Shown: positions 1 through 16,713 of the stretch, piece after piece
Position numbering within the stretch: the stretch's first letter is position 1
Layout: the number at the start of each line of letters is the position of its first letter
Origin: a virus
IMG/VR virus record: IMGVR_UViG_3300043172_000650
Location: 1-27,389 of that record
Strand: one strand, 5' to 3'
Length of the DNA stretch: 27,389 nt
Notes under the pieces: model-generated
The model's input: only the letters and a program-made list of their open reading frames with translations
Told to the model about the DNA's origin: nothing
The model's database searches: none
Made by a program: the position numbers and the translations under genes

Positions 1-1506
1 TGCGTCGAGGATTTCGACGACTTCGAAGCTCGGGGGCGTCTGCTCTCCGTGGACCGGGAGCCCGCCGAAGACTACGAGGCCAAGGAGTGGGGGAGTGGCG
101 TACCTGCAGCAGCCCAGCGTGCCATCATGGCGAGCCGGGTACTCCGCGTTCTATTCACCCGAGCAGACGGGCAGCGAGATGAGTCCGATGCGGACTTCCA
201 TGCTGCGTGCCTGCTTGCAGAGGCCGGCGTCTCGATGGCCGATGCGGAGCATGCGCTCCGGTATCGGCGAGAGAGGGTTGGCGCGAAGCCCCATACGTGG
301 AAGGATTACTTCAAGACAACCATTCGAAAGGCATACGGGAAGCAGGGTCAAGCGCCACCGGAGCCAGAGCCCGAGCCGGGTTCGACCAAGAGCTCCGCAG
401 AGGAAGAGACCGAATCCTCGTCGGAGAAGACCGCATTTGAATTGGCCTTTGCACCCGAGAACATGACCGTGGAGTTCGCATTCGATAGCAAACCTGAGCC
501 GCTCGAGTTTCTGGTCGAGGGATTCTTCCCGGCCAAAGAGACGGCCTTGCTCGTCGGCCCTGGCGGTGCCGGCAAGGGCTTCTGGCAGATGGAGCTTGCC
601 CGGTGCTTGGTGTTGGGTGAGCCCTTCGGGCCTCACAAGGTAGTGAAGCCTCGTGGCGTGCTGATGATCTCGCTCGAAGACGACCGCCTGGAATTCCATC
701 GGCGCCTAACGGCGATGCTCGACTTCCACTACAACGGCCATGACGAGGTCTGGCGGCGCGATCTGCTCGACGTCTTCATGCGTCGGATGCTCTTCGTGAG
801 TGGGTGTGGGATCTCAGAGTTCAAGCTGGGCGACTTGAGCCCGCTGCGTGGCGCCATCTATCAGGCCGTGAACCAGCACCTCGAAGAGCCGGGCCTGATC
901 ATGCTCGACCCGCTGGGGAGGCTGTTGCCTGCCGGCGCCAAGCTGAACGATCAGGCTGCAGCCGCGGATCTGATCACGGCGATGGATGCGATCCGGGTAG
1001 ACACGGGCGCGGCGGTGCTTGCAGCCCACCATGCCAACAAGGCGGCTCGGAAAGAGGGCGAGATGGGCAACGCCGTGGCTGCCACCGGGAGCGCCCAGCT
1101 GGTGGATCTGGTGCGATTAGTGGTCAACCTCTGGGATCCGGGTGCCGAAGAGTATCCCGAGGAGGATAACGCCAGCGAGTTCGGGTATGCGCGGCAGCGG
1201 GCGGTCAAGAGCAACCGGACCAAGTCAGACCTCTCGGGGCTCTGGTGGCGGCGTGAAGAGGGTGGCGTCTTGTCTTACTGCCCGGTCGCGAGCAAGCAGG
1301 GCAAGGTCGAGAATTGGATCCTCGACATGATCGAGATGGCCGGGCACCCCCTCCCGGTGGGTGTGATTCGGGACAAGATGAAGGCCGATCACGAGACCAG
1401 CCGCCGGCCTGTCGACGCTGCCCTGACCTCGATGGTGGAGGAGGAGATCCTGTTCAAGAAGGTCGAGTCCAACAGCGTCCTCTACGGTATTAGCGGGGGG
1501 AATTGA
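1..1506 (+). CDS. RepA-like replicative helicase / primase-helicase, 5' partial
   Basis: The frame is open from the first base, so the gene probably starts left of the window; a GTG at 49 gives 485 aa but has no convincing ribosome site. Counting from 49, residues 42-75 (RDESDADFHAACLLAEAG and on) resemble the helical linker that follows primase domains. Residues 101-130 are a Pro/Glu/Ser-rich linker. A RecA/RepA-like ATPase domain follows, with Walker A GPGGAGKG (170-177), Walker B-like LIMLDPLG (283-290) and the HHANK motif near 327 typical of RepA/AAA_25 ATPases. The last 65 residues look like a winged helix. By family knowledge it would be a hexameric ATPase unwinding phage DNA at replication. 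Whether a primase domain is fused upstream cannot be seen. Confidence 0.85.
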   Translation, partial: CVEDFDDFEARGRLLSVDREPAEDYEAKEWGSGVPAAAQRAIMASRVLRVLFTRADGQRDESDADFHAACLLAEAGVSMADAEHALRYRRERVGAKPHTWKDYFKTTIRKAYGKQGQAPPEPEPEPGSTKSSAEEETESSSEKTAFELAFAPENMTVEFAFDSKPEPLEFLVEGFFPAKETALLVGPGGAGKGFWQMELARCLVLGEPFGPHKVVKPRGVLMISLEDDRLEFHRRLTAMLDFHYNGHDEVWRRDLLDVFMRRMLFVSGCGISEFKLGDLSPLRGAIYQAVNQHLEEPGLIMLDPLGRLLPAGAKLNDQAAAADLITAMDAIRVDTGAAVLAAHHANKAARKEGEMGNAVAATGSAQLVDLVRLVVNLWDPGAEEYPEEDNASEFGYARQRAVKSNRTKSDLSGLWWRREEGGVLSYCPVASKQGKVENWILDMIEMAGHPLPVGVIRDKMKADHETSRRPVDAALTSMVEEEILFKKVESNSVLYGISGGN

Positions 1507-1531
1507 CCATGCGTAGGGGTTTCACTATGAG
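1503..1531 (+). promoter_or_regulatory. Candidate sigma70 promoter overlapping the helicase stop
   Basis: TTGACC (1503-1508) and TATGAG (1526-1531) are separated by exactly 17 bases, matching the -35/-10 consensus at 5/6 and 4/6 positions. Transcription would begin near 1538 and read into the small-gene cluster from 1776. The -10 element overlaps the first TGAGCAATAG motif (1528-1537), so a protein bound there could block the promoter. This is a consensus match only. Confidence 0.45.
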
Positions 1532-1689
1532 CAATAGATCAGAGCAGCTCGCTATTGTACAGAGGGTGAGCAACTAGGAAAGCTCAATGAAACCAGGAGG
1601 TTAATGCTATTGCTCACTAGGTACACACTGATCATGTCAAGATGGGCTCTAAGTGCCCGTAATCGTTGCAGTTGATCAGTTGCTCACCC
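1528..1689. repeat. Four TGAGCAA motifs forming two interleaved inverted repeats
   Basis: The 7-mer TGAGCAA occurs at 1528-1534 and 1567-1573 on the + strand and inverted at 1610-1616 and 1680-1686. Copies 1 and 3 form a perfect 10-bp inverted repeat (TGAGCAATAG at 1528-1537 with CTATTGCTCA at 1607-1616). Copies 2 and 4 form a perfect 12-bp one (GGGTGAGCAACT at 1564-1575 with AGTTGCTCACCC at 1678-1689). The two pairs cross, so both cannot form in one nested fold. A shorter CAATAG/CTATTG pair (1532-1537 with 1552-1557) lies inside. Possible roles are operators for a dimeric repressor, replication iterons next to the helicase gene, or RNA elements. Confidence 0.65.
1604..1675 (+). CDS. Possible 23-aa leader peptide (uncertain)
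   Basis: A short ORF (MLLLTRYTLIMSRWALSARNRCS) begins three bases after a perfect AGGAGG at 1595-1600, which is an unusually short spacing. It lies inside the repeat-rich non-coding region and overlaps copy 3 of the TGAGCAA motif. It could be a translated leader that influences the downstream hairpins, or the ribosome site may be chance. A 16-aa ORF at 1527-1577 upstream has no ribosome site and is not called. Confidence 0.2.
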   Translation: MLLLTRYTLIMSRWALSARNRCS

Positions 1690-1691
1690 CC

Positions 1692-1730
1692 CACCCCCTA
1701 CGGGGGTGTATTGCCGGCGGGCAACACCCC
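1692..1730 (+). promoter_or_regulatory. Two mutually exclusive hairpins (attenuator-like)
   Basis: Hairpin A pairs CACCCCC (1692-1698) with GGGGGTG (1702-1708) around a 3-base loop. Hairpin B pairs GGGGTG (1703-1708) plus TTGCC (1711-1715) with GGCAA (1720-1724) plus CACCCC (1725-1730), around a GGCG loop with a TA bulge. Both use the same G-run, so only one can form at a time. They sit 45-80 bases before the start codon at 1776. No U-tract follows either hairpin, so simple intrinsic termination is not obvious. Confidence 0.5.
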
Positions 1731-1775
1731 TCGTAAGAAGTGTCTATGTGTGGAAAACAACACGGAGGAGAATCG

Positions 1776-2024
1776 ATGACCACCACCACCAAAAAGTACG
1801 ATGTCGCTATCGCATGCCGAGTCTGGATCTCGGCTACTCAGCACTTGCATCGAGCGGTCAGCGCTCGACCACCCCGAGAGCGAGATAAGGTCTGCACTGC
1901 GCTCAACACCGCTGCGCACATCGTCGAGGCGCTGGTCAAACGCGTGGAAGCAGAGCCCAATGCCGCGCAGTCCGCACTGCCGATCGAGGAGATTGGTAAA
2001 CAAAACCAGGAGGTTGGCAAGTGA
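1776..2024 (+). CDS. Small hypothetical phage protein
   Basis: The 82-aa product starts MTTTTKKYDVAIACRVWISA. I chose ATG 1776 because GGAGGAG (1764-1770) lies five bases upstream; an in-frame upstream start at 1740 has no such site. The body is mostly helical (ATQHLHRAVSARPP..., AAHIVEALVKRVEAE) with no recognisable motif. The stop overlaps the next gene's GTG, indicating translational coupling. It is the first gene after the long regulatory region. Function not recognised. Confidence 0.75.
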   Translation: MTTTTKKYDVAIACRVWISATQHLHRAVSARPPRERDKVCTALNTAAHIVEALVKRVEAEPNAAQSALPIEEIGKQNQEVGK

Positions 2025-2275
2025 ACGTACCCAAAGACATCTCGGACGAGCAGCTCTCGCAGGCGCTCCGAACCGCGATCGAGAAGTTGATTGATACTGT
2101 GCGCGACTCGGGCAAACCCGTGGATATCGCTTGCTTTATCATGATTCCAGACCACGAGCGATCCGAGTTCACGGGCTGCTTCTTCGGCACACTGCCGCCC
2201 GAAGTCGCCAAGGAACTCATCATCGCTGTGGCAAAAGGCGAGGAGTTCGACCCCAAGACCCAGACCGCGCACTGA
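2021..2275 (+). CDS. Small hypothetical phage protein
   Basis: 84 aa from a GTG that overlaps the previous stop, with AGGAGG at 2008-2013 seven bases upstream. The sequence alternates helical segments (ISDEQLSQALRTAIEKLIDTV, PPEVAKELIIAVAKGEEFD) with a central hydrophobic strand (PVDIACFIMIPDHERSEFTGCFFG), which suggests a compact alpha/beta fold. No family was recognised. Transcription may end shortly after it, because a strong hairpin lies at 2386-2426. Confidence 0.75.
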   Translation: MNVPKDISDEQLSQALRTAIEKLIDTVRDSGKPVDIACFIMIPDHERSEFTGCFFGTLPPEVAKELIIAVAKGEEFDPKTQTAH

Positions 2276-2385
2276 ATTCCGTAGACAAAACGGGGGAGTT
2301 GGGTTACGAGTGTGGCGACACGATTGCGAGGGCTCGGACCTTCCGAGTGCCAAGCACCAGACGAAGACCAGCGACCAAAGGCCGT

Positions 2386-2426
2386 GGGGCCGGTGAGAAC
2401 CTTCTGTTCTTTTTCTCACTGGCCCC
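2386..2426 (+). terminator. 14-bp hairpin, terminator-like
   Basis: Bases 2386-2399 pair with 2413-2426 over 14 positions including one G-U, around a 13-base loop. The 3' side is followed by TTGTCC rather than a clean U-run. It lies in the 177-base non-coding stretch 2276-2452, which also holds two small hairpins: GTGT/ACAC at 2310-2321 and CTCGGA/TCCGAG at 2333-2347. It separates the 1776-2275 pair from the genes starting at 2453. Confidence 0.55.
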
Positions 2427-2452
2427 TTGTCCTGACACCCGGAGGAGACAGC

Positions 2453-2680
2453 ATGCTGACACCGTTCGGAAAACCCCGGAAGCCGGCAGGGTACACAGGT
2501 GCGTCAGGACCCAACTCACCGGGACGCATGCCGAAGAAGAATGCCTCGAAGGGCGGAAGCAAAGCAACACCCAACGCCGAGACACTCGGCGTGGATGAGG
2601 TCGACGGCAGCGTGCCGGGCCATGACTACGGAACCAACGAGGTCGGAGCGTACTCGCGCGAATTGCCGATGGAGAAGTAA
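2453..2680 (+). CDS. Small basic, low-complexity hypothetical protein
   Basis: 75 aa from ATG 2453, preceded by GGAGGAG at 2441-2447. The frame is open further upstream, but that part runs through the hairpin and has no start with a ribosome site. The product is rich in Pro, Gly, Lys and Ser (FGKPRKPAGYTGASGPNS, then PGRMPKKNASKGGSK) with an acidic tail, and is probably disordered. The MPKK segment after a GPNSP stretch resembles the product of 11041-11235. Role unknown. Confidence 0.65.
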   Translation: MLTPFGKPRKPAGYTGASGPNSPGRMPKKNASKGGSKATPNAETLGVDEVDGSVPGHDYGTNEVGAYSRELPMEK

Positions 2681-2683
2681 ACC

Positions 2684-2818
2684 GTGCCCACTATGCGTGG
2701 CACGAGACCTGCCAAGCGTAACAAGCACAACGTACGCTCGGCACCTACGACCAAGGGTAAGCCGCCTAACACGCCGCTACCCAAACCCAAGGCGCGCAAA
2801 GCCAGAGCTCCACGATGA
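2684..2818 (+). CDS. 44-aa very basic peptide
   Basis: A short ORF opens with GTG 2684, six bases after GGAGAAG (2671-2677), and ends with a TGA that overlaps the ATG of the next gene (ATGA at 2815-2818). The product begins MPTMRGTRPAKRNKHNVRSA and ends KPKARKARAPR, with about a third Lys/Arg and many Pro. The tight coupling on both sides supports a real gene despite its size. It may bind nucleic acid, by composition only. Confidence 0.55.
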   Translation: MPTMRGTRPAKRNKHNVRSAPTTKGKPPNTPLPKPKARKARAPR

Positions 2819-3111
2819 CGAGACCGGGGCCGAAGCTGGGCAGCAAGCAGGCCGCCAAACCCAAACCCACACACTCGTTCTCACCTACACTCAAGCAGGT
2901 AGAATTCGTTCGGCTACGGATAATCGAGTCGCTCGAGTCTTGCGGCTACGGCATCGTGCGCTTAGCCAACGCCGCCACCACCTGGGATCCGCTCGACGAG
3001 ATCATACGCGTGGAAACAGAGCTTGCGCGGTACGACGAGTACTGGCGAGCCGTGGGCGACTCGGCGATCCAGTTCAAGCGCAACGAGAGGGGCGAAGAGA
3101 TTGAGCACTGA
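2815..3111 (+). CDS. Hypothetical protein, possible small terminase-like N-terminus
   Basis: 98 aa starting MTRPGPKLGSKQAAKPKPTH. The RPGPK opening recalls P27-type small terminase subunits, but that is a weak resemblance and the rest does not confirm it. A helical segment (TLKQVEFVRLRIIESLESCG) is followed by IVRLANAATTWDPLDEIIRV and an ELARYDEYWRAVG helix. It starts within the stop of the 44-aa gene and its 3' end overlaps the likely TTG start of the next gene by 11 bases. Confidence 0.7.
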   Translation: MTRPGPKLGSKQAAKPKPTHSFSPTLKQVEFVRLRIIESLESCGYGIVRLANAATTWDPLDEIIRVETELARYDEYWRAVGDSAIQFKRNERGEEIEH

Positions 3112-3466
3112 GAGTGCTGATAAACAGCAGGACAACACCAAGGGGCGGTATGACCACCTCAAGGCACACCACTGGAAGCCCGGCCAGTCAGGCAACCCGA
3201 AGGGCAGGCCCAAGCGCGAGAGCTTCGAGAGCATCGTGCAGCGACTGCTCGACCTCGACCACCCCGACAAGGACGTCGACTGCTCGCGGCGTGAGTACAT
3301 CGCCCGCCAGTTCGTGGACATGATGGAGGGGCGAAACGATAAGGTGTTGAAAGAGTTTGCAGACCGGGTGTGGCCCAAGCTGACCAAGCACGAGATCACA
3401 GGCCGAGACGGCGAGCCCGTGGACTTCAGGCAGATCATCGAGAAGGCGAGGAGCGAGGATGACTGA
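3101..3466 (+). CDS. DUF5681-domain-like protein
   Basis: Residues near 25-40 contain WKPGQSGNPKGRPK, the signature of DUF5681 phage proteins (typically F-KPGQSGNPKGRPKG). A helical region follows (SFESIVQRLLDLDHPDK, YIARQFVDMMEGRNDKVLKEFADRVW). The frame is open upstream to 3023 but that part is a shadow of the previous gene. I prefer TTG 3101, preceded by GAGAGGGGCGAAGAGA, giving 121 aa starting MSTESADKQQ. DUF5681 genes are common near packaging genes in phages, but their function is not established. The start is less sure than the gene. Confidence 0.75.
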   Translation: MSTESADKQQDNTKGRYDHLKAHHWKPGQSGNPKGRPKRESFESIVQRLLDLDHPDKDVDCSRREYIARQFVDMMEGRNDKVLKEFADRVWPKLTKHEITGRDGEPVDFRQIIEKARSEDD

Positions 3467-3995
3467 GACCACACCTCCGTTCGGACAGCAACATGTGCTC
3501 GACCGTGGCTGTGCTTGCACCGTATGCACGCAAGCGTTCTACCTTGAGCGCCGCGAGTCTCGACCCGAGGTCGACAAGGCATTCGACAAGCTGAAGGTGC
3601 GCGACGCCGTGGCGTGCCATCGCTGCGGCAGGCTCACTGCCAACGCGATCGGATACTGCGACCAGCACACGGACAGCCTCAAGGCTCACGCGACGGCGAC
3701 TGACAAGGAGCCGTCAGCGCAGAAGGGCAATGGCACGCCGTTCATGTCTGCTGTGGGCACCGACAACTGGGTGCATCGCAGCGTGGGCATGAAGTGCTCG
3801 ACCTGCATGTGGTACTCGCCGAAGGTTGGCAGGCCGATCAGTGATGAGGCTGCGGCCAAGCTGATCGAGGGGCGAGGCGCTGTCGGACGATGCCGCAAGC
3901 ACTCGCCGACACTGCAGGGCTGGCCGGTCATGTACGCCGCCGACTGGTGCGGCGACCACAAGCTCGATGAGGAGAAGGTCAATGGCAACGCCTGA
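3459..3995 (+). CDS. Cys-rich, probable zinc-binding phage protein
   Basis: 178 aa with AGGAG at 3449-3453 five bases before the ATG. Three cysteine/histidine clusters are visible: CACTVC near residue 18, CHRCG with YCDQH near 53-70, and a C-terminal unit with CSTCMWY, GRCRKHSP and DWCGDHK. The last unit matches a recurring phage protein pattern (CxxC, later GxCRxxxP, W and DDWCGEW-like). This suggests one or more structural zinc sites. Enzymatic residues are not apparent. It is followed by the Acb2-like gene with overlap. Confidence 0.7.
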   Translation: MTETTPPFGQQHVLDRGCACTVCTQAFYLERRESRPEVDKAFDKLKVRDAVACHRCGRLTANAIGYCDQHTDSLKAHATATDKEPSAQKGNGTPFMSAVGTDNWVHRSVGMKCSTCMWYSPKVGRPISDEAAAKLIEGRGAVGRCRKHSPTLQGWPVMYAADWCGDHKLDEEKVNGNA

Positions 3996-4206
3996 CGACG
4001 TTCGCAACTGGTTCACCTACCACCAGCCGACCGACGACCAGCAGGAGCGGTACGCGGAGCTGCGCGATGCGTTCCGTGAGCTGGCCGACGAGATCCTGAT
4101 GAAGACGCCGTCCTGTGCCGACCAGACCGCGGCTCTTCGAATGCTGCGCGAGACGGCGATGGCGGTCAACCAGACGATCGCTTGCAACGAGGACGCGAAG
4201 CCATGA
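3982..4206 (+). CDS. Acb2/Tad1-like cyclic-nucleotide sponge (putative anti-CBASS)
   Basis: The 74-aa product begins MATPDDVRNWFTYHQPTDDQ. It carries the sequence pattern I associate with the Acb2/Tad1 hairpin family: FTYHxPxxxQxERYxxLRD, then a helix RELADEI, then TPxxxxxxxALRxLRExxMxxNxxIAcNE. Acb2 proteins are small phage proteins that assemble into hexamers and sequester the cyclic di- and trinucleotides that activate CBASS effectors; Tad1 proteins sequester the Thoeris signal. Start ATG 3982 has AGGAGAAGG upstream; an in-frame TTG/ATG region further upstream is less likely. It overlaps both neighbours, in a cluster of small accessory genes. Assignment is by motif memory; which ligand it would bind cannot be told. 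Confidence 0.72.
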   Translation: MATPDDVRNWFTYHQPTDDQQERYAELRDAFRELADEILMKTPSCADQTAALRMLRETAMAVNQTIACNEDAKP

Positions 4207-4574
4207 GAGGCGGGCTTGCAAACATCTATTCAAACGCCTTCGCACCTAGCGGTGCGCTGGCCCGGCAAGACAACCTGCCGGTGTACACGGAGAATTGGCT
4301 CTCGCACAGCGAGGACCAAGACGGCTGGCGTAACCAGCCGCAGTCCGGTGCGCTGCGTGTGAAGATGGATGCGCACCAGTACGCCATGCTCATGAATCAC
4401 CTTGCAACCCAGGAGCACACCGGCACGCACGGTGCGATGGAAGCGCTCGACCGCGACGGATACGGGATCAACGTGGAGTTCGAGTACGAGTCGCTGCGTC
4501 AGGCGAAGAAGGAAGTGATCAGCGCAGGTGGACTCGCGGCCCAAGATGGCCGGCGAGCATACAGGAGATTCTGA
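4203..4574 (+). CDS. Hypothetical phage protein
   Basis: 123 aa from ATG 4203, which overlaps the Acb2-like stop (ATGA). An in-frame TTG at 4182 is less likely. The product contains ALARQDNLPVYTENWLSHSE, DAHQYAMLMNHLATQEHTGT and a basic tail (GGLAAQDGRRAYRRF). No domain recognised. Its stop overlaps the start of the Ala/Gly-rich gene, so it may be expressed with the structural proteins that follow. Confidence 0.7.
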   Translation: MRGGLANIYSNAFAPSGALARQDNLPVYTENWLSHSEDQDGWRNQPQSGALRVKMDAHQYAMLMNHLATQEHTGTHGAMEALDRDGYGINVEFEYESLRQAKKEVISAGGLAAQDGRRAYRRF

Positions 4575-5572
4575 TGCCCTTTCTAGCCGCGATTCCGGCA
4601 GCGCTAGGCGCAGCAGCGAGTGCAGTAGGTACCGGTGCAGCCGCAGCTGCAGGTGCAATCGGCAGCGCAGCGGGAGCCGTGGGCTCGGCGATTGGCGGCG
4701 GGCTATCAAGCGCAGCAGGTGCTGTCGGTTCGGCTCTTGGCGGCGGCGCAGGCGGCGCAGCTGGCGGGTCGCTGGCCGGGATGGCCGGCGCAGGCGCAGG
4801 CGGCGCAGGTGTAGTGGCCGGCGGCGCAGGTGGTGGTATCGCGGGCGGACTCGGCGGCGGGCTGGCTGGTGGAGCAGGCGCGGCTGGCGGTATGGGCGCT
4901 GGCTCGCTCGGCGCAATGGGCGGCGGCGTGGCAGCTGGCACAGGGCAGCTGGCCGGCATCGCAGCGGGCGCACCCGGTGGCGGCATGGGCGCGCTGGCAG
5001 GCGGCGGTACGATGGCACCCGGGCAGATGACGGCGATGGCCGGGCAAGGCGCGACGGGATCGCTGGCTCCAGTGGGCGGCATGACTCCGACAGCTACGGG
5101 CGCATCGCTCACGGCCCCGAGCATGACGCCGATGACCTCGGTTCCGACGGCTACACCAACAGCGGTCGCCACGCCAGCATCGCAACCCGCAGTCTTCGGC
5201 GATGTGTCGATGGGCATGCCGACCTCGAATTTCGGTGTGCAAGGGCCGGCAGCGCAGATCGGGCCAGGGGGCGGGTCGTTTACTCCCACGGCAGAGCTGC
5301 CGATGCAGAATGCGGCGCAACCCGCGAACATGATGGACAACCTCAAGGCCAAGCTCGGCGAGCTGGGCTACGACGACTACATGGACATGGCGCAGCAGGC
5401 GATGGAAGGCATGAGTGGCCAGGGCGGCGGTGAAGAGCAGGGCGGCATGGCTGGCCCGCCACCGATGCAGCCCGGTCAGCCACTGGGCGCTGTCAACCAG
5501 ATGCAGAACTACCTCTCGCCGCTGATGGGCGGCGGTGGTGGTGGTGGCGGTCAAGGAGGTCTGTTCGGGTGA
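4574..5572 (+). CDS. Ala/Gly-rich protein, candidate virion or membrane-active protein
   Basis: 332 aa. Roughly the first 150 residues are almost entirely Ala and Gly with scattered Ser, Val, Ile and Met (AASAVGTGAAAAAGAIGSAA and on), a hydrophobic low-complexity stretch that could insert in or cross a membrane. A Pro/Thr-rich middle follows, then a helical segment (NLKAKLGELGYDDYMDMAQQ), and a Gly-rich end with eight consecutive Gly. Similar proteins sit among the head and ejection genes of podoviruses. Its stop overlaps the GTG of the next gene. A role in DNA ejection is inference from composition and position. Confidence 0.75.
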   Translation: MPFLAAIPAALGAAASAVGTGAAAAAGAIGSAAGAVGSAIGGGLSSAAGAVGSALGGGAGGAAGGSLAGMAGAGAGGAGVVAGGAGGGIAGGLGGGLAGGAGAAGGMGAGSLGAMGGGVAAGTGQLAGIAAGAPGGGMGALAGGGTMAPGQMTAMAGQGATGSLAPVGGMTPTATGASLTAPSMTPMTSVPTATPTAVATPASQPAVFGDVSMGMPTSNFGVQGPAAQIGPGGGSFTPTAELPMQNAAQPANMMDNLKAKLGELGYDDYMDMAQQAMEGMSGQGGGEEQGGMAGPPPMQPGQPLGAVNQMQNYLSPLMGGGGGGGGQGGLFG

Positions 5573-7509
5573 GCTTGTCCGCTCAGTACCAGCAGCAGGT
5601 GGGTGGGCTCAATGAGCCGACGCTACACCAGCGTGCAAGGATGCAAGCGCCGCCGCAGCCGAGCCTGCGCGACGACTTCAAGCGGATCAACGCGCTGCTT
5701 CGCATCGTGACTACCGAGACCGTGACGCAGCCGCACCAGATGGCAGCGATGGGGATGAGCCTGCCCGAGACGATGCGGCACATGGGCAGCGAGGCCTTGC
5801 GCGAGATACGCACAGGTGAGTACGGCAGCCCAGTCGAGGCCGGCAAGCAGGCGCTCGTCAAGTTCGGCGGTGAGTTTGAATCCAACTTGCAACGTATTCC
5901 AGGTGGCGAGTGGGCATCGGATGCGCTCGAAGGCGCTGCGCAGTACGCCGATGAGGCGGGTGTTGGTGGGGTGGGTCAGTTCGCTGCGGCGATGGTGGCG
6001 CCCGGCGTCCCGGTCAGCAAGACAGCCAAGGCGGGCAAGCTCTTCCGCGAGACGGGGCTCGAAGGCATCCCGAAGTACGGCAAGCAGGCCCAGATCAAGG
6101 ACGTCCCGCGCATGAACAAGGTGCAGGCTGCCGAGCAGCAGCGGGTCGACGACATCGTCGAGTCCCAGCTCCCCGACGCACGCGCACGCATGGAGCGCGG
6201 CATGCAAGAGGGGCTCGAATGGTACAACCTTGAGCCGCTCTACGAGGGCGTTGTTGCCGAGCTGGGCGAGGAGGGTGCGAAGAGCTGGCTCGAAGGCTTC
6301 GCCGCACGCATGGGTCCGACTTCCTCGGGCTCGCGAGTGCCGCATAACGTGTCGCGTGGCATGTGGGCTCAGAACGTGGCGCAAGCGGGCGACGACATTC
6401 GCCTGCTCGATCCCAGCAACGTGAAGCCGTGGAGTGCGCAAGGCCACATGCGCTACTACAACGCGATGCTCCCGGCCCTGGGCCGCATTCAAGACTTCGA
6501 GCAGGCCGGCAAGAGTGCGCTGTCTGCGATGGATCCACGCGACGCCTTCAAGATCAGGCGCTACAGCGAATCGATTGCCGGCAACTACCAGAACGTGCCG
6601 CCCGACATGCACATGACCCGGCAGTTCTTCGGCAAGGATATGCCGAGCGCATACGAGCAGCGTGCGATCGAGAACATCCACCAGAACGTGCTCGGTCCCG
6701 AGTACGGCCTGCCGCCCAGCCAGTCGATGGCCGCGCAGTGGGTGGGTGGCGCTGGGCTGACGAACATCGACGACACGCGTCCGCTGATGCAGATCGTGAA
6801 CGAGCAGATCTCGAAGGGCGCGCAGTCAATGGGTCTCGACGAGGCCGAGTACTTCCGGCGCATGGTTCACGGCGAGTTGCCGGTAGGTGCGAAGCGGATG
6901 ACTCAGCTGCCGCAGGGCAAGGGCTACCGGCTCCAGTCTGCAACGCCTACGGAATTCGTCGCCGCTCGAGATGCGTTTGCCGCGCAGTCTCAGTACGGCA
7001 GCTTCCTCAGTGACCTAACACCCGCCCAGCTCCTGGATTCCCAGTCGATGTCGTTCCTCGATGACACTGGCACAGTGGGCTACACGATTGGGCGTGACGG
7101 CACGCTGAACAACCTCTTCAATAACTCCGGCCGTCGTGGTGCAGGCCGGCGCGCAGTCGAGCATGCGATCGAGCAGGGTGCAGTGCGGCTCGACAACTTC
7201 GATGGGTTCTTGACGGACCTCTACACGCGGCACGGATTCGTCGAGACGAGCCGGATGAAGTTCTCCGATGAGTTCGCACCGCCGAACTGGAACTACGCCG
7301 AGCACAAAAGGCCTGATGTGGTTGAGATGGCGCTCGACAGCACGCGGCGCCGGAAGACTCACGGGGTCGAGACGGTGGACGTCAAGGTGCCGGTGGCGGA
7401 TGCCATCAGGGCCGACGCGAAGCAGGCCAAGATGCTGGGCGAGTCGCGCAAGGCCCGAGGCCGCAAGCTGGGCAAGCGCAAGCGGCTGACTGCGAAGGGA
7501 GGCCGGTAG
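5569..7509 (+). CDS. Large candidate ejected/polyvalent protein with GNAT-like C-terminal domain
   Basis: 646 aa from a GTG overlapping the previous stop. Residues 1-170 are helical with a hydrophobic stretch (VGGVGQFAAAMVAPGVPVS near 133-150). Residues 190-400 form a phage-type domain (EGLEWYNLEPLYEGVVAELG, then SWLEGFAARMGPTSSGSRV). Residues about 460-588 look like a GNAT fold: VGYTIGRDGTLNNLFNNSG, then GAGRRAVEHAIEQGAVRLDN, then TDLYTRHGFVETSRMKFSDE and PDVVEM. The last 50 residues are very basic. GNAT domains transfer acyl groups from acyl-CoA. Neighbours suggest it may travel in the virion and act in the host cell, or act on virion proteins; both are inference. Confidence 0.75.
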   Translation: MSLSAQYQQQVGGLNEPTLHQRARMQAPPQPSLRDDFKRINALLRIVTTETVTQPHQMAAMGMSLPETMRHMGSEALREIRTGEYGSPVEAGKQALVKFGGEFESNLQRIPGGEWASDALEGAAQYADEAGVGGVGQFAAAMVAPGVPVSKTAKAGKLFRETGLEGIPKYGKQAQIKDVPRMNKVQAAEQQRVDDIVESQLPDARARMERGMQEGLEWYNLEPLYEGVVAELGEEGAKSWLEGFAARMGPTSSGSRVPHNVSRGMWAQNVAQAGDDIRLLDPSNVKPWSAQGHMRYYNAMLPALGRIQDFEQAGKSALSAMDPRDAFKIRRYSESIAGNYQNVPPDMHMTRQFFGKDMPSAYEQRAIENIHQNVLGPEYGLPPSQSMAAQWVGGAGLTNIDDTRPLMQIVNEQISKGAQSMGLDEAEYFRRMVHGELPVGAKRMTQLPQGKGYRLQSATPTEFVAARDAFAAQSQYGSFLSDLTPAQLLDSQSMSFLDDTGTVGYTIGRDGTLNNLFNNSGRRGAGRRAVEHAIEQGAVRLDNFDGFLTDLYTRHGFVETSRMKFSDEFAPPNWNYAEHKRPDVVEMALDSTRRRKTHGVETVDVKVPVADAIRADAKQAKMLGESRKARGRKLGKRKRLTAKGGR

Positions 7510-7871
7510 TGGGCATCGCTGAAGACCGCCGCAAGCGTGCGGCAGCAGCTGCGAAGACCGCCGATGCGCCCCCCGCTCGCGGGCAGGAGAGCCTGAATCG
7601 CTACATGGGCGAGGACAAGTATCTGATTCGCCCGCCGAAGCGGAAGCGAGAAGAGCAGCGCAGTGGCGCATACGATGACGACCCCGACAACCCCGGTGAG
7701 ATCATCATCAACTGGGACTACGACGATGGGGGTGGTGAGACGTTGCGACAGTTTCATGCGAACTCGTTGGCTCGGATGACCGAGCGAAACGGGGGCGAGT
7801 GGATGGAGGAAAACAGAAGCAGGCTTGACAACGAATTCAAGTCCATGCTGGTCCGGGGTCTTCTGACATGA
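7509..7871 (+). CDS. Hypothetical protein with acidic centre
   Basis: 120 aa from a GTG sharing a base with the previous stop. It starts with a basic Ala-rich helix (DRRKRAAAAAKTADAPPARG), then RPPKRKREEQRSGAYDDDPD and a run of Asp residues (NWDYDDGGGE), and ends in a helix (NEFKSMLVRGLLT). No recognised family. It couples to the membrane protein at 7868. Confidence 0.65.
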   Translation: MGIAEDRRKRAAAAAKTADAPPARGQESLNRYMGEDKYLIRPPKRKREEQRSGAYDDDPDNPGEIIINWDYDDGGGETLRQFHANSLARMTERNGGEWMEENRSRLDNEFKSMLVRGLLT

Positions 7872-8263
7872 ATGAGCCTTTGCAAGAGGTAATTGTGCAT
7901 ATACCACCGATGTTGAGCTGGGCTGCAGGTGTAATGGCTGTTGCGATAGTGGGTATTCTTGCGAGGATCGAGATTCTTCATTCGGGCATGGCCAAGGCGC
8001 TTACGCGTCAGTCTGATGTACTGGACTCACTCCAGAGACTCGAAACCATGCACGAGCACCCCGACGACTACAACTTCGGGACGAGCGACACGAACAAGAT
8101 GATGATCGCACTCGGGAACAACTGCGAGCAGGTTTGCAAGCGTCACGGTCAAGTGCTCTACGCAATAGAGCGTCTGGCATCGCTCATCGCCTACGACATC
8201 GAGCAGAGGACAGGCAAGCGCCCGCCGCCCATGCCGATGAAGGCAGAGGATACAAAGGTATGA
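7868..8263 (+). CDS. Single-pass membrane protein, lysis-associated (holin or i-spanin candidate)
   Basis: 131 aa. One clear membrane segment at about residues 14-33 (PMLSWAAGVMAVAIVGILAR) is followed by a hydrophilic, helical region and a Pro-rich tail (TGKRPPPMPMK). The C-terminal part, with a helix before a xxQTGKxPPP motif, resembles small phage proteins often found beside endolysins. The start overlaps the preceding stop, and its own stop overlaps the endolysin start. Position argues for a lysis role; the single membrane pass would fit a class III holin-like protein or an inner-membrane spanin. The choice is not resolved. Confidence 0.65.
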   Translation: MNEPLQEVIVHIPPMLSWAAGVMAVAIVGILARIEILHSGMAKALTRQSDVLDSLQRLETMHEHPDDYNFGTSDTNKMMIALGNNCEQVCKRHGQVLYAIERLASLIAYDIEQRTGKRPPPMPMKAEDTKV

Positions 8264-8598
8264 AACTCGGGGCCAAACAGGAGCTGTTCGCATCGCTGCT
8301 GGTAGAGCTGATTGCCTTTGCGATTGCGCTGGGGCACGGAGTCAGGCCCAAGGAGCTGCTGCGAACCAAGGAGCAGGCGGCCCTGTACGCGGCACGCGGC
8401 ACCGGCATCCCGAACTCGCTGCACTGCAAGGGGCTCGCGATTGATCTGGTGCTGACCGAGGCCGGCGTTCCGCTGTGGTCGACTGAGCAGTACACGGAAC
8501 TCGGCGAGTTCTGGGAAGGGCTCGACGACCTGTGCAGCTGGGGCGGACGCTTCGGAGATGGTATGCACTTCAGTGTGATGCATCGAGGTGTCCGATGA
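8260..8598 (+). CDS. M15-family peptidase endolysin (VanY / L-Ala-D-Glu peptidase type)
   Basis: 112 aa from ATG 8260; the upstream in-frame extension is shadow. The fold signature is clear: SLHCKGLAIDLVL gives zinc ligands H55 and D62, FWEGLDDLCSWGGRFGDGMH gives the second part, with H103 as the third ligand and the WGGRFxDGxHF motif typical of T5-type and related M15 endolysins. The length is that of a single catalytic domain without a cell-wall-binding module, as usual for phages of Gram-negative bacteria. It would cleave peptide crosslinks of peptidoglycan. No signal peptide is seen, so it needs the neighbouring membrane protein or another holin for release. Confidence 0.9.
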   Translation: MKLGAKQELFASLLVELIAFAIALGHGVRPKELLRTKEQAALYAARGTGIPNSLHCKGLAIDLVLTEAGVPLWSTEQYTELGEFWEGLDDLCSWGGRFGDGMHFSVMHRGVR

Positions 8599-8888
8599 TC
8601 GAGTGGCTCGAAGACTGGGGCTGGATGGCCGCTTTCTTGCTGGCGCTGGTGTTGATGTGGAGCTTGGGCTGTGCGGTTGCCAGCTTGGAGCGCTACGACC
8701 CGGCGACGGGCGAGAAGATCTGCGACATCTGGAGCGGCGTCGTTGGTACGGGAGAGACGGAGCAAGTGACGAATGCTTGCGGCGACTACGGCTACTCGAC
8801 CAAGGACACTGGCATCAGTGACAACGGCAAGGCCGCTCTCGGCATGGTTGCAGAGGGCGCGGCACGCGGCATCATGCCGTTGCCATGA
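8595..8888 (+). CDS. Lipoprotein-like membrane protein (o-spanin candidate)
   Basis: 97 aa from ATG 8595, overlapping the endolysin stop; the open frame upstream is shadow. The N-terminus has a hydrophobic helix (MAAFLLALVLMWSLGC, residues 11-26) ending in a cysteine, resembling a lipobox although the residues before Cys (Ser-Leu-Gly) do not fit the consensus order well. The mature part is short and polar (RYDPATGEKICDIWSGVVG, then ACGDYGYSTKD). Located directly after the endolysin, an outer-membrane spanin is a reasonable guess; a plain membrane protein is the alternative. Confidence 0.6.
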   Translation: MIEWLEDWGWMAAFLLALVLMWSLGCAVASLERYDPATGEKICDIWSGVVGTGETEQVTNACGDYGYSTKDTGISDNGKAALGMVAEGAARGIMPLP

Positions 8889-8905
8889 AGACATAGGAGA
8901 GTGAA

Positions 8906-9187
8906 ATGGGAAACTTCCCGAAGAGTGCGTTGAAGGGCCGGAAAGGTGTCGGCCACTACGACAACAACAAGGGCACGTACTACGGCCCCGAGCCCACCGA
9001 CACGGGCAAGGGTGGCCCGAAGGCCGCGCCCAATGGCGGCGGCGTTCGTTCGCTGGACATTCCCGACAGCAAGGTGCCCCGCAGCAAGGGTGCTCCCGTG
9101 GAGCAGAGCGGTTCGTTGGGTATTCCGACATCGAAGATGCCTCGGCAGGTACGTGGCCGTGCGCAAAATGAGCCGCATCTGCGGTAG
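8906..9187 (+). CDS. Small basic low-complexity protein with internal repeat
   Basis: 93 aa with AGGAG at 8896-8900 five bases before ATG. The product is Gly/Lys/Pro rich and probably unstructured. It holds two copies of an 11-residue unit: SLDIPDSKVPR and SLGIPTSKMPR, about 20 residues apart. No recognised family. It belongs to a group of small basic proteins in this phage (2453, 2684, 9200, 11041). Lies between lysis and packaging genes. Confidence 0.65.
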   Translation: MGNFPKSALKGRKGVGHYDNNKGTYYGPEPTDTGKGGPKAAPNGGGVRSLDIPDSKVPRSKGAPVEQSGSLGIPTSKMPRQVRGRAQNEPHLR

Positions 9188-9199
9188 GAAGGGGACACG

Positions 9200-9526
9200 A
9201 TGCTGACAGACAGTGAGCTGGGGGTGAAGATCAAAGAGATCTTCCACTCCCCGATGACATGGCAGGGGCAGTCGGCTGCAATCCAGGCGCTCAAGCCTGA
9301 GTGCGGCGACATGCCCGACGAGAACACCATCGGGAGTCGCGCACGCAACGCGAGCTTGCTTGCGAAGCAGGCTGCCGAGAACGATACCAAGAAGGCGCAT
9401 CGCACTGCCCCTGGCCGTAAGCCCGAGCTGCGCGATCCGCCTCGCTACGTTGAGGACAAGGCCGAAGAGCCGAAGCCGAAACGGAAGACGTTCAGCAGCA
9501 AGAAGGCGACACGAAAGAAGGCATGA
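9200..9526 (+). CDS. Small protein upstream of terminase large subunit
   Basis: 108 aa, ATG 9200 after AGGAAGGGG. The N-terminal half has helices (SELGVKIKEIFHSP, SAAIQALKPECG, ASLLAKQAAEND); the C-terminal third is strongly basic (KPKRKTFSSKKATRKKA). Its stop overlaps the ATG of the terminase. Position immediately before terL is where a small terminase subunit would be expected, and a helical body plus basic tail does not exclude it, but no small-terminase motif is recognised. Confidence 0.65.
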   Translation: MLTDSELGVKIKEIFHSPMTWQGQSAAIQALKPECGDMPDENTIGSRARNASLLAKQAAENDTKKAHRTAPGRKPELRDPPRYVEDKAEEPKPKRKTFSSKKATRKKA

Positions 9527-10965
9527 GCGAAGCGATCAACACAGAAGGCGCGGCTGCTTTGGTGGAGCGGTGCCGGAAGGATCCCGAGTTCTTCGTTCGC
9601 GAGGTGCTCGGCGATGACCCGTGGGAGCAGCAGGTTGCGATCATGGAGTCGATCCGAGACAACCGCGTCACGGCAGTGCCGAGCTGCCACAGTAGCGGCA
9701 AGAGCTGGACCGCAGGGCGCATTGCGCTGTGGTTCGCGTTCAGTCACCACGGCTCGAAGGTGATCACCACCGCTCCCACCGAGCGGCAGGTGAAGGGTGT
9801 GCTGTGGGGCGAGATCCTGCGAGCGCACAAGAGCGCGAAGCTCCCGCTGGGTGGCGAGCCGACGGCGATGCAGCTCAAGCTCGATGCCGACTGGTGGATC
9901 TGGGGGTTTACGGCTCCCGACTGGGACGAGTCCCGCTTCCAAGGCTTCCACGCCCCCCATATTCTGGTGATCGTGGACGAGGCCAGCGGCATATCTAGCG
10001 CGCTGATGGATCAGATCGACTCGCTCTTGGCCGGGGGTCACGCCCGCAAGCTCCTGATCGGAAACCCGGTGATTGCCGGGTGCTCATTCCAGCGCGACTG
10101 CGAGAGCGGCGAGGTCCACACGATTCCGATTGCCGCGTGGGACACGCCGAACTTCTTGGCCTTTGACATCACGGAAGACGACATGGTGAGCGGCGAGTGG
10201 CGCCGCAAGGTGAAGGAGGATGAGTACCCGCACCCCGAGCTGATCAGCCCCGAGTGGGTCGCTGAGCGGTTGGAGCTCTGGGGCGTCGACTCCTCGGCGT
10301 GGCAGAGTCGTATTCGAGGCGAGTTCCCCAGTGTAGTCGAGGGCGCGTACTACGGTGAGCTGCTCGCCAAGGCCAAGGAAGAGGGCCGCATCGGAAGCGT
10401 ACCTTACGATGAGTCGAAGCTTGTTACGACCGCGTGGGACATCGGCGTGCGCGATCCGACTGCAATCTGGTTCTACCAGACGCATGGTAACAACCTACAC
10501 ATCATCGACTACTACGAGGCCACGGGTGTAGGCCTGCCGCATTACGTGAAGGTATTGCAGAACAAGGGCTACACGTACCGAGAGCACATTGCGCCGAATG
10601 ACATGAAGGTTCGCGACTGGTCGAATGGCGCGCTTGCGCGTACAACCGTCGCGCAGGAGCTGGGTATCACCTTCCGTGTCCTCGACCGCATCTTGGTCAG
10701 GATGGGCACCGAGGTGGCCGAAGGTATCGACGCTGTTAGACGGGTTCTCCCGCGCTGCCATTTCGACGAAGCGAACTGCAGAGAGGGTATTTCTGCACTC
10801 GAAAACTATAAGCGAAAGCGAAACAGGAGCACGGGAGAACTCACAGATACCCCGGATCACAACTGGGCCAGCCACGGAGCAGATGGGTTCCGGTACCTTG
10901 CTCTAGGAGTCAGGCAGGTGGCAAAGATCACCCGCCCGACGCAGAACACGCGATGGGTTGTGTAA
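9523..10965 (+). CDS. terL: Terminase large subunit
   Basis: 480 aa. The ATPase part has Walker A PSCHSSGKS (53-61), Walker B ILVIVDEAS (147-155) and the coupling motif GNP (180-182). The RNase H-like nuclease part begins TTAWDIGVRDPTAIWFY with candidate metal ligands D305 and D310, followed by the strand NLHIIDYYE (D329) and a C-terminal DHNWASHGADGFRYLALG segment typical of terminases. By family it pumps phage DNA into the prohead through the portal and cuts the concatemer. The start overlaps the upstream gene's stop (ATGA), and the small ORF at 10965 overlaps its own stop. Confidence 0.93.
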   Translation: MSEAINTEGAAALVERCRKDPEFFVREVLGDDPWEQQVAIMESIRDNRVTAVPSCHSSGKSWTAGRIALWFAFSHHGSKVITTAPTERQVKGVLWGEILRAHKSAKLPLGGEPTAMQLKLDADWWIWGFTAPDWDESRFQGFHAPHILVIVDEASGISSALMDQIDSLLAGGHARKLLIGNPVIAGCSFQRDCESGEVHTIPIAAWDTPNFLAFDITEDDMVSGEWRRKVKEDEYPHPELISPEWVAERLELWGVDSSAWQSRIRGEFPSVVEGAYYGELLAKAKEEGRIGSVPYDESKLVTTAWDIGVRDPTAIWFYQTHGNNLHIIDYYEATGVGLPHYVKVLQNKGYTYREHIAPNDMKVRDWSNGALARTTVAQELGITFRVLDRILVRMGTEVAEGIDAVRRVLPRCHFDEANCREGISALENYKRKRNRSTGELTDTPDHNWASHGADGFRYLALGVRQVAKITRPTQNTRWVV

Positions 10966-11201
10966 TGGGTTTCTTGGAAGTGTTTTACGAACTTGAGCGG
11001 CGGGTCGATGCTCTTGAAAAGCAAGTAAAGGAGATTCATGATGGCAAGGATCAAGACAAGAGAGACAACGGGCAAGGGCTTCAAGCATCGGGACCAGGGC
11101 GAGGGTCCGAGCAACCCGATGCCCAAGAAGATGTCTGCGAAGGCAGTAAACCGCAAAAGCGTGGCAAAGCGGGCCGGAAAGCCGATGCCTCGCACCACTA
11201 G
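10965..11201 (+). CDS. Small coiled-coil protein overlapping the next gene
   Basis: 78 aa from ATG 10965, which overlaps the terL stop. The first 30 residues form a convincing amphipathic coiled coil (FLEVFYELERRVDALEKQVK). From residue 26 on, the sequence is Gly/Gln/Lys/Asp rich with a basic end. It overlaps the 11041 ORF in another frame for about 160 bases, so its tail may be constrained by that gene or the frame may simply run on by chance. The coupling to terL and the heptad pattern favour a real gene. Confidence 0.5.
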   Translation: MGFLEVFYELERRVDALEKQVKEIHDGKDQDKRDNGQGLQASGPGRGSEQPDAQEDVCEGSKPQKRGKAGRKADASHH

Positions 11202-11235
11202 CGGTTCGACGTTCAAGAGAACTTCGGGAGCTTAG
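11041..11235 (+). CDS. Small very basic protein
   Basis: 64 aa starting MARIKTRETTGKGFKHRDQG; AAAGGAG at 11027-11033 is seven bases before ATG 11041 (an adjacent ATG at 11038 is possible). It is Lys/Arg/Ser/Pro rich (NPMPKKMSAKAVNRKSVAKR) and shares an MPKK unit after a GP-S/N-P stretch with the 2453 product. Codons mostly end in G or C as in the surrounding genes, supporting coding. Probably a nucleic-acid-binding or virion-associated small protein, by composition only. Confidence 0.6.
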   Translation: MARIKTRETTGKGFKHRDQGEGPSNPMPKKMSAKAVNRKSVAKRAGKPMPRTTSGSTFKRTSGA

Positions 11236-11244
11236 GAGGCAAAC

Positions 11245-13584
11245 GTGGGCGCACAGGATCCCAGAGAACTCATCCAGCAGCGAGGCGAGGCCGAGTCAGG
11301 CCCTCGCGACGGGCAGACGGGCACGCGTGCTCCCGATGGCCCCGCACCCTTGCGCCATGACGATGCGGTTGAGTTCCCGAGCATGGCCGGGGTGGATGCT
11401 GCCGAGCCCGCGCTCTCGGACTACCCCGAGGACGATCAGCCCGAGGCGCCCTACACATCTGGCAGTACCCGCATGGGTCACAAGATGTCGAAGAACGAGA
11501 TGCTCTCTATCGTGCAGCGCGAGTTGGATAGCAGCCTCGGATGGACGGGTACGCGGCTCAGTGAGGCGCGGCGCGTAAACTTGCAGCAGTATTTCAGCAA
11601 TCCGCGTGGCGACGAGCGCGAAGGCAGAAGCCAGGTGGTCACGCGTGATGTCTTCGAGCAGGTGGAGTGGCTACTTCCGCAGCTGATGGAGATCTTCACC
11701 AGCGGCCCCGAGGTGGCGCAGTTCATTGGAACCAACGACGACGATGAGCCCGCGGCAGAGCAGGCCACCGCTGCGGTCAATTACATCTTCAGACAAGAGA
11801 ACGGCTTCATGGTGCTCTACACCATGTTCAAGGATGCGCTGATCCAGAAGAATGGAATCGTGAAGGCAACGTGGGAAGAGGATGCGAGAGCCACATTCGA
11901 GAGCTACGAAGGCAAGAACATCATCGACCTGACAGGACTGGCCGAGGATCAGGAGTTCGAGATCACGGCCATCACGGCGTGGCATGAGCAGAACGGCGAG
12001 CGAGAGATACTCGACCAAGAGTCGGCGCTGCCCGAGAACCATGACCCGATGGCGGTGAAGTACGACATCGAGGGCACGCGGATCAAGCGCGACGGGAAGG
12101 TGGTGCTGGAAAACATCCCGCCCGAAGAGTTCATCATTAACCGCGATGCGCGAGGGCTCAAGGATCCGACATGCCGATTCGTGGGGCACCGCGTGCGCGC
12201 CAGCGAGTCGCTCCTAATCGCGTGGGGATTCCCGGCAGACTTGGTGAAGCGATTGCCGGGTTCGCAAGCGGTCTACACCACCGATCAGGACACGATCATT
12301 CGCTCCAGCCAGGATGATTCGTATCCCCTGGTCTACTCGTACCGCTCGGACTCCGAGCGAACGATCTACATCAACGACTCCTACGTCCTGATGGACACGG
12401 ACGGCGACGGGATCAGCGAGTGGTGGCACATCGTCACGGGTGGGGATTACGCTCAGGAACTCCTCTCGGCTGAGCCTTGCAGCGGGCATCCTTTCTACTC
12501 GGTGACGCCGATTCCGATCCCGCATCGCTTCTATGGCTTGAGCCTCGGCGATGTTACGGGCGACTTGCAGGAGATCAACACCACACTGTGGCGGCAGCTA
12601 CTCAACTGCGCCTACCTTGCGACCGACCCGCGCAACATCGTTACGTGTCAGGGAATTGGCGAAGAGGCCACTCCCATGGTGAATCTGGATCAGCTGCTCA
12701 ACGCCGCCCCTGGCGGCTACATCGAAGAGTACCAGCAAGGTGCTCTGCGACCTTACGAGCAGAAGAACAACATGATGGAAATCATGCCGGCGCTTGAGAT
12801 GCACAACAAGATGAAGGAAGCGCGCACGGGTATTAGTCCAGATGCAATGGGAATCAACCCGGAATCCATCAGCAAGCATGTGTTGGGGACGATGGTGCAG
12901 ACGAGTGCGGCGGCTATGCGGACTTCGCTCTACGCACGCATCTTTGCCGACACGGGCGTGAGGGACTTGTTCCAAGGAATCTACAGCCTGCTGCTGCGGC
13001 ACCACAGTGCCCCGATGATGGTGCGACTCAATGACAAGTACGTGCAGGTGGACCCGACGACATGGTCGACCAACATGGATTGTCAGGTCACAGTGGCACT
13101 CGGGCACGGTAGCCGGATGGAGAAGGGGATGAACCTCCAGACGATCGTCTCCGTGCAGAAGGAGCTGAACGAATCTGGCTGGGGCAACATGGCGACACAG
13201 GACAATGTCTTCAACACCGTGACGGACTTGGTCGAGGCTTTGGGATTCCGCGAGGCCAGCAAGTTTTTCACGGATCCGAAGACGAACGCTCCGACAGAAC
13301 CTGCCCCCGACCCGGCACAGCTGGCGATTGAGGAGCAGGGCAAGATCGAGTGGGCGAAGCTGGAACTGAAGCGGCAGGAGCAAGAGACCGATCGAATGAC
13401 GCTGGGCCTCGACATCAAGAAAGAAGAGCACCGGCACGAGGAGAAAATCCAGGAGCTTCGAGCAGGCGGTCAGCCTTACGAGGCTGAGACCGACCTGCCC
13501 TACGAGATGGACATTCCGGCTGCAAACCCGCTGCCTGAAACCCAACTGCCCGCTGACGATTCAGCGGCAGAGCCCACGCAATAA
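11245..13584 (+). CDS. Portal protein, P22-like
   Basis: 779 aa from GTG 11245 with AGGAGG at 11234-11239. The first 80 residues are polar and probably disordered. The portal body starts with NEMLSIVQRELDSSLGWTGT and contains the typical VVTRDVFEQVEWLLPQLMEI region, GFMVLYTMFKDALIQKNGIV and, later, GDVTGDLQEINTTLWRQLLN, as in P22-type portals of podoviruses. A coiled-coil tail (WAKLELKRQEQETDRMTLGL) and an acidic Pro-rich end follow. Twelve copies would form the head vertex ring through which the terminase packages DNA. The length agrees with P22-like portals (about 700-800 aa). Confidence 0.9.
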   Translation: MGAQDPRELIQQRGEAESGPRDGQTGTRAPDGPAPLRHDDAVEFPSMAGVDAAEPALSDYPEDDQPEAPYTSGSTRMGHKMSKNEMLSIVQRELDSSLGWTGTRLSEARRVNLQQYFSNPRGDEREGRSQVVTRDVFEQVEWLLPQLMEIFTSGPEVAQFIGTNDDDEPAAEQATAAVNYIFRQENGFMVLYTMFKDALIQKNGIVKATWEEDARATFESYEGKNIIDLTGLAEDQEFEITAITAWHEQNGEREILDQESALPENHDPMAVKYDIEGTRIKRDGKVVLENIPPEEFIINRDARGLKDPTCRFVGHRVRASESLLIAWGFPADLVKRLPGSQAVYTTDQDTIIRSSQDDSYPLVYSYRSDSERTIYINDSYVLMDTDGDGISEWWHIVTGGDYAQELLSAEPCSGHPFYSVTPIPIPHRFYGLSLGDVTGDLQEINTTLWRQLLNCAYLATDPRNIVTCQGIGEEATPMVNLDQLLNAAPGGYIEEYQQGALRPYEQKNNMMEIMPALEMHNKMKEARTGISPDAMGINPESISKHVLGTMVQTSAAAMRTSLYARIFADTGVRDLFQGIYSLLLRHHSAPMMVRLNDKYVQVDPTTWSTNMDCQVTVALGHGSRMEKGMNLQTIVSVQKELNESGWGNMATQDNVFNTVTDLVEALGFREASKFFTDPKTNAPTEPAPDPAQLAIEEQGKIEWAKLELKRQEQETDRMTLGLDIKKEEHRHEEKIQELRAGGQPYEAETDLPYEMDIPAANPLPETQLPADDSAAEPTQ

Positions 13585-13595
13585 AGGAGAACGAG

Positions 13596-14102
13596 ATGGT
13601 CTCGAAACGAACAGCAGGGAAAGCGGGAAAAGCCGCAATGTCAGCGCCGAACCGAGCAGCTCGGGCCGCGAAGGGTGCCGCGAAGGGCGCGCTGAAAGGC
13701 GCGAAAGCGGTAGGCAAGCTCGCCAAGAAGCCCGGCAAGGTCGCGAGCGCAGTGGGCAAGGCCCAGCTGAAGACCGCGAAGAAGGGCGCGAAGTTCATGT
13801 CCGGTGGCCTGCTCGGCAAGAAGGACACCCGCGTGAAACAGGATCCGGCGCGGAAGGCCGCACGCAAAGAGGGCGCGACGATCCGCAAAGCCGCTCGCGC
13901 AAAGGGCAAGGAGCTTCGGAAGGCCGGCGACAGCAAGGGCGCGCAGGCCGCTCGGAAGGCGGGACGCAAAGAGGCCAAGGCGATCATGAAGGCGACGCCG
14001 GGCCGCAACGTGGCGCGGAAGGCCGCGAAGGCAGCTGCCGAGAAGCCCGCTGGCAGGCCCAATCCGTCAGCGCGTGGCTCAGCGAGGAGGGGCAAGAAGT
14101 AA
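13596..14102 (+). CDS. Histone-H1-like Lys/Ala-rich protein
   Basis: 168 aa with AAAGGAG before ATG 13596. About half the residues are Lys, Arg or Ala, in repeated KAA, KGA and RKA units (ARAAKGAAKGALKGAKAVGK, later ARKAGRKEAKAIMKATPG), the composition of histone H1 tails and bacterial HU-tail/H1-like proteins. Almost no aromatic or acidic residues. It sits between portal and scaffold, an unusual place that suggests it is packaged or binds DNA near the portal. Codon choice resembles neighbours, so it is not an obvious import. Low-complexity sequence limits any family call. Confidence 0.75.
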   Translation: MVSKRTAGKAGKAAMSAPNRAARAAKGAAKGALKGAKAVGKLAKKPGKVASAVGKAQLKTAKKGAKFMSGGLLGKKDTRVKQDPARKAARKEGATIRKAARAKGKELRKAGDSKGAQAARKAGRKEAKAIMKATPGRNVARKAAKAAAEKPAGRPNPSARGSARRGKK

Positions 14103-16646: not shown

Positions 16647-16658
16647 GTAAGTGAACAA

Positions 16659-16700: not shown

Positions 16701-16713
16701 GCTGGAGTGACAA

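Follow-up and report, generated by a model that had tools for sequence, protein, structure and literature searches.

A cluster of inverted TGAGCAA sites with stem-loop potential 3' of a RepA-type helicase gene in a tailed phage: a candidate replication element

An important question raised by this locus is what four copies of one heptamer, which form two crossing inverted repeats in the gap just behind a replication gene, do for the virus that carries them. The window, i.e. the whole stretch of 27,389 nucleotides analysed here (positions 1 to 27,389 of the IMG/VR virus record IMGVR_UViG_3300043172_000650), otherwise carries tailed-phage genes, which specify terminase, portal, scaffold, capsid and tail components. 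The initial annotation had offered three explanations for the motif copies: sites of a dimeric regulator, iterons for the adjacent helicase, and a pseudoknot-like RNA switch.

Motif copies in the gap 1507–1775

The gap comprises 269 bases between the stop codon at 1504–1506 and the ATG at 1776, and this intergenic stretch has a lower G+C content. It contains TGAGCAA four times in the orientation order +,+,-,-; the fifth copy of the window is distant, at 19837. The features are as follows.

1–1506, + strand: replication gene, truncated at its 5' end by the window edge
1528–1534 (+), 1567–1573 (+), 1610–1616 (-), 1680–1686 (-): TGAGCAA copies
1528–1537, + strand: arm (site) 1, TGAGCAATAG
1564–1575, + strand: arm (site) 2, GGGTGAGCAACT
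1607–1616, - strand: arm (site) 3, the identical 10-mer to site 1
1678–1689, - strand: arm (site) 4, the identical 12-mer to site 2
1776–2024, + strand: next gene, 82 aa, no known family

Our check confirmed the coordinates of the four copies and of the perfect inverted repeats, 1528–1537/1607–1616 (10 bp) and 1564–1575/1678–1689 (12 bp), whose pairs cross. Because arms 1 and 3 share one sequence and arms 2 and 4 another, there are two site subtypes, each present as an inverted pair. Of two small ORFs, 1527–1577 (16 codons) runs from arm 1 to arm 2 and 1604–1675 (23 codons) from arm 3 to arm 4, with their ends at or beside these arms.

The initial annotation had left to shuffled sequences the question whether such crossing repeats are expected by chance, and the answer differs between the repeats and their crossing. 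Among 5000 dinucleotide shuffles of 1503–1689, an inverted repeat of at least 12 bp together with one of at least 10 bp never occurred, an inverted repeat of 12 or more occurred nine times, and any 7-mer present at least four times was found in seven. Of 1361 window tiles of 187 nt each, a single one, located here, showed the 12+10 combination. The crossing pair is also the longest (22 bp summed) in 204,460 bases made up of the window and related contigs (14 stretches, some overlapping), but the runner-up reaches 20, so that crossing by itself is only modestly unusual. The inverted-site cluster with its stem-loop potential is real and not a product of chance, and its remarkable feature is the common TGAGCAA core within one gap rather than the crossing.

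The sigma70 promoter that had been proposed to overlap the first arm did not withstand the same kind of comparison: the window has 13 matches as good as TTGACC-17-TATGAG (9/12), while 20 mononucleotide shuffles had 12.05 on average, i.e. chance level. An intrinsic terminator as the sole meaning of the region was also rejected, none being listed in 1504–1775 by the criterion of a hairpin plus T-run.

Predicted folding

The order of the arms had been thought to preclude a single nested stem. However, since the core is common to all four arms, arm 1 can pair with arm 4 and arm 2 with arm 3, and this nested arrangement is the predicted minimum-energy fold of the RNA (-92 kcal/mol, z -4.4). The same nested fold is predicted for the + strand as single-stranded DNA (z -4.8). 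Core pair probabilities for arms 1-4/2-3 are 0.98/0.99 in RNA and 0.72/0.83 in DNA, and forcing the other pairings in RNA costs 8.5 kcal/mol for 1-3 and 5.5 kcal/mol for 2-4. The argument for a pseudoknot loses its force, because a nested fold is available and is predicted to be more stable. The predicted elements are listed below.

1512–1702, + strand: nested stem-loop (RNA and DNA folding)
1512–1519 with 1695–1702: its closing stem, outside the motifs
1528–1548 with 1665–1686: its extended stem of arms 1 and 4
1565–1577 with 1607–1618: its stem of arms 2 and 3
1642–1647 with 1655–1660: small hairpin inside it
1627–1634 with 1673–1680: further inverted repeat of 8 bp, an alternative to the 1-4 pairing used in DNA folds
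1703–1730, + strand: strong hairpin without a T-run immediately past the stem-loop, not a listed terminator

When the arms were kept fixed and the rest was shuffled, equal or better folding of the + strand was obtained in 3–7 of 400 shuffles; for the - strand, 21–78 of 400 folded as well as the natural sequence, which is no clear excess. These fixed-arm shuffles suggest that there is structure beyond the motifs, mainly on the + strand. The z-score of the gap is not special in itself, because several tiles of the window show similar values, the lowest (-4.5 among 606 tiles of 180 nt with 30 shuffles each) lying elsewhere than the gap. This lowest-z region is found around the end of the capsid gene (approximately 16521–16860), where perfect inverted repeats of 13 bp and 12 bp are present. 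In the next intergenic stretch after the gap, 2276–2452, a near-perfect 14 bp hairpin was seen by eye at 2386–2426 (GGGGCCGGTGAGAA / TTCTCACTGGCCCC, with one G-T).

The adjoining replication gene and its relatives

Judging from its sequence matches, the product of the upstream gene is a helicase of the RSF1010 RepA type. The gene 1–1506 matches AAA_25 with an E value of 1.4e-30, the only strong solved relative of the helicase is RSF1010 RepA (PDB 1g8y; E 7e-15, residues 157–427), and the comparison with the RepA of an IncQ1 plasmid gives 2.8e-19; among plasmid records there were three matches at E up to 0.01, the best being an IncQ1 replicon. A putative helical domain resembling that of the RepB' primase precedes the helicase, on a weak match to RepB_primase_C just below the cut-off (E 1.5e-5; 25.2 bits against 26.1), the catalytic part being off the window. 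The last 80 residues of this initiator have the look of a winged helix by eye, and a match to Penicillinase_R (E 0.024, below the cut-off) is the sole family support for it; a C-terminal winged helix is possible. The C-terminus has no similarity to RepC. Single-sequence AlphaFold models of the initiator were poor, with mean pLDDT of 37 and 48.

The collections searched yielded no close relative of this replication region. No relative of the region was obtained from viral_contigs with the helicase, the 82-aa gene, an 84-aa gene or exact DNA patterns, nor from genome_contigs with the helicase. A phage DNA search with window positions 1–8000 gave only six records, all at 7175–7254, and a search of phages with the helicase gave nothing at E 1e-5; with E relaxed to 10, it matched only parts of the helicase core. 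In viral_contigs, the capsid and the terminase protein each led to eight loci, which correspond to 11 distinct related contigs (G001–G011), none of which was seen to cover 1507–1775; two near-identical contigs cover the window only at 7187–15525 and from about 15,400 onward. A protein search of eight related contigs revealed no detectable relative of the helicase, and among the window and ten of the 11 contigs (all except G008), AAA_25 exceeded the cut-off in the window only. When the element was compared with 311,649 bases of loci by blastn and nhmmer, only 12-base matches appeared. One related contig, G006, from a phage with related structural genes, has YqaJ and RecT recombination genes (locus L016, 10871–12685) and no AAA_25 match, so that replication modules may differ within the group. 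A literature search found no publication on the region, a kind of search that cannot prove absence.

We scored inverted repeats on one scale in nine regions, with 300 shuffles each. The comparators are few, were hand-picked from the matches (H42, H44, H158, H159, H164, H199, H8 and H9) and also took in three precedents, so that they are not a random sample. No shuffle reached the score of the window, of the stretch 3' of the pRN1 gene, of that of Agarilytica plasmid pSU2, or of the crr of phage P4, whose score is boosted by its own two 120 bp direct repeats. BPP-1, a proposed phage precedent whose 3' stretch contains an annotated ORF, was weak (6/300, z -0.4). Negative results were obtained for four of the eight 3' comparators: Wheelie (51/300), C. 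bescii (56/300, on a stretch defined from an incomplete gene table), and WO and Vibrio phage 1.123.O (300/300 each). A 3' gap is absent from the helicase genes of Clancy, PrincePhergus and Puppers; since Clancy and PrincePhergus come closest in architecture (RepB_primase plus AAA_25), this argues against a general rule. The pSU2 gap (L041, 4195–4488), 3' of a Toprim-AAA_25 gene, has three copies of GCGTTCCC, in both orientations, and an inverted repeat of 10 bp. In Vibrio phage 1.123.O (L034, 2717–3201), CCGCGAG occurs seven times on one strand in non-coding DNA upstream of the DnaB/AAA_25 helicase gene, and thus some phages may have a repeat cluster at the opposite end of the gene.

Known systems, rival readings and a candidate replication element

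We consider it about an even chance (roughly 0.5) that 1507–1775 is a cis-acting replication element of this tailed phage, either an origin or a control site like the P4 crr, situated immediately downstream of the gene that encodes the phage's own multidomain initiator. This reading is based on the finding that inverted sites beyond chance lie in a gap adjoining a replication gene, on the RSF1010 RepA type of the helicase with an IncQ1 replicon as best plasmid match, on the fact that the window scores like pRN1, the P4 crr and Agarilytica pSU2 on the same measure, on the + strand structure beyond the motifs, and on published fusions of primase, ATPase and winged helix with RepA-type helicases. 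Against it count the searches that yielded no homologous region, the weak BPP-1 score, the four negative comparators, the three helicase genes that lack a 3' gap, a winged helix that is no more than possible, and the - strand, which folds no better than expected once the arms are fixed. By analogy, the precedents of pRN1 and P4 point to a replication cis-element.

In the P4 record, crr is annotated immediately downstream of alpha, and its type 1 repeats point both ways; P4 crr/ori and the window thus have in common that short sites of either orientation adjoin the 3' end of a primase-helicase gene. Eight of the 11 sites printed for P4 are TGTTCACC, i.e. GGTGAACA, which is close to GGTGAGCA in the window. 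In contrast to the window with its four sites only, P4 has the two direct repeats of 120 bp, and its ori is separate. The likeness of the sites is post hoc, and no relationship between the two proteins was detectable (phmmer against P4 alpha gave E 0.24 and no real alignment), so that we count it as an analogy. Such similarity of motif does not confer membership of the GGTGANCA or IncQ family.

In the plasmid pRN1, too, a stem-loop occupies the gap behind the primase-helicase gene (orf904), that of the window being predicted. The account of pRN1 in PMC4234260 describes a stem-loop of 100 bp that is needed for replication and restores replication when relocated, reports that specific binding of the pRN1 protein to it was not found, and proposes a like arrangement for phage BIP-1. 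Unlike the window, pRN1 has a single perfect stem of 21 bp with no repeated motif, and its helicase belongs to SF3, whereas the window has a RepA-type and no pRN1-type SF3 helicase.

IncQ/RSF1010 shares with the window the RepA-type helicase and perhaps, on the weak match, a RepB'-type helical domain, but there RepA, RepB' and RepC are three separate proteins, whereas here helicase and primase-type domain are on a single chain. The oriV of IncQ/RSF1010 carries direct iterons, in contrast to the inverted sites in the window, where 1300–2000 contains no direct iteron array and the C-terminus of the initiator does not resemble RepC. This oriV includes the sites ssiA and ssiB, and PMC4434180 describes ssiA as a hairpin followed by GTG. 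Proteins with the order primase-PriCT-ATPase-WH, some with RepA-type helicases, are described in PMC5862659, and the section on these PrimQH-type proteins gives no origin. Should both the winged helix and a primase domain encoded before the window start be confirmed, the window protein would have the same domain order; it differs in that the primase domain proper is off the window. Of the three earlier explanations, sites for the adjacent helicase have the most support, in the form of inverted octamer-type sites like those of P4 and not of direct-repeat iterons.

An unlikely alternative is that the + strand works as a structured RNA, as a 3' UTR, a small RNA or the leader of the gene at 1776. 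In such an RNA the nested multi-arm stem-loop would form, with 1-3 or 2-4 as possible switch pairings, perhaps around the two small ORFs. The fold z-score agrees with this, as does the + strand's better folding than 393–397 of 400 fixed-arm shuffles, which the - strand does not match; such a strand bias is expected of RNA. The hairpin at 1703–1730 comes next to the fold, and AGGAGG is present ahead of the ATG at 1604, but at a spacing of 3 nt compared with 7 nt at 1776. Moreover, the similar z-scores of other tiles weaken the first point, and perfection is seen in the crossing pairs, while in a nested RNA one would expect it in 1-4 and 2-3. No Rfam 15 covariance model matched even at E up to 5, so that a known Rfam family was rejected, as was a tRNA, no tRNA gene being present in the window.

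That the two site subtypes form an operator, at which a phage regulator controls the genes from 1776 onward, is doubtful. An operator is in keeping with short sites that lie close to where a gene starts, in intergenic DNA of lower G+C; however, distances of 39 to 70 bp between the arms are too large for the half-sites of one dimer, no regulator gene was identified among the window proteins scanned, and the promoter match does not exceed chance. An operator would also leave the additional stems beyond the sites unexplained. It is very improbable that the region is a phage attachment site with arm-type sites for an integrase: its size and inverted short arms resemble an attP, and in P4 the annotated attP arms are repeats of 12 bp that run in both directions, but no integrase was identified among the window proteins scanned and a tRNA gene is lacking.

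If the gap is a replication element, as we favour, the putative C-terminal winged helix of the initiator would bind the TGAGCAA sites in duplex DNA, and the helicase would then open the duplex so that the strands may fold into hairpins via 1-4/2-3 or the alternative pairings. The primase part could start primers on the exposed strands, in the way RepB' works at ssi hairpins, and the inverted layout of the sites would serve both strands. A more elaborate and quite improbable version is a two-state origin, in which the arms pair either as 1-4/2-3 (nested) or as 1-3/2-4 (crossing) and the fold that forms licenses initiation, a fused RepB'-RepA-winged helix initiator reading the duplex sites plus one single-strand fold. 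If true, a single compact site would combine the octamers of P4, the stem-loop of pRN1 and the primed hairpins of IncQ replicons.

A replication element would give a compact and testable pair of initiator and origin, in a phage group for whose replication region the searched collections offered no close relative. If the reading is true, it would also connect two kinds of origin: octamer-type origins, as in P4, and stem-loop origins 3' of primase-helicase genes, as in pRN1, where no recognition sites had been found.
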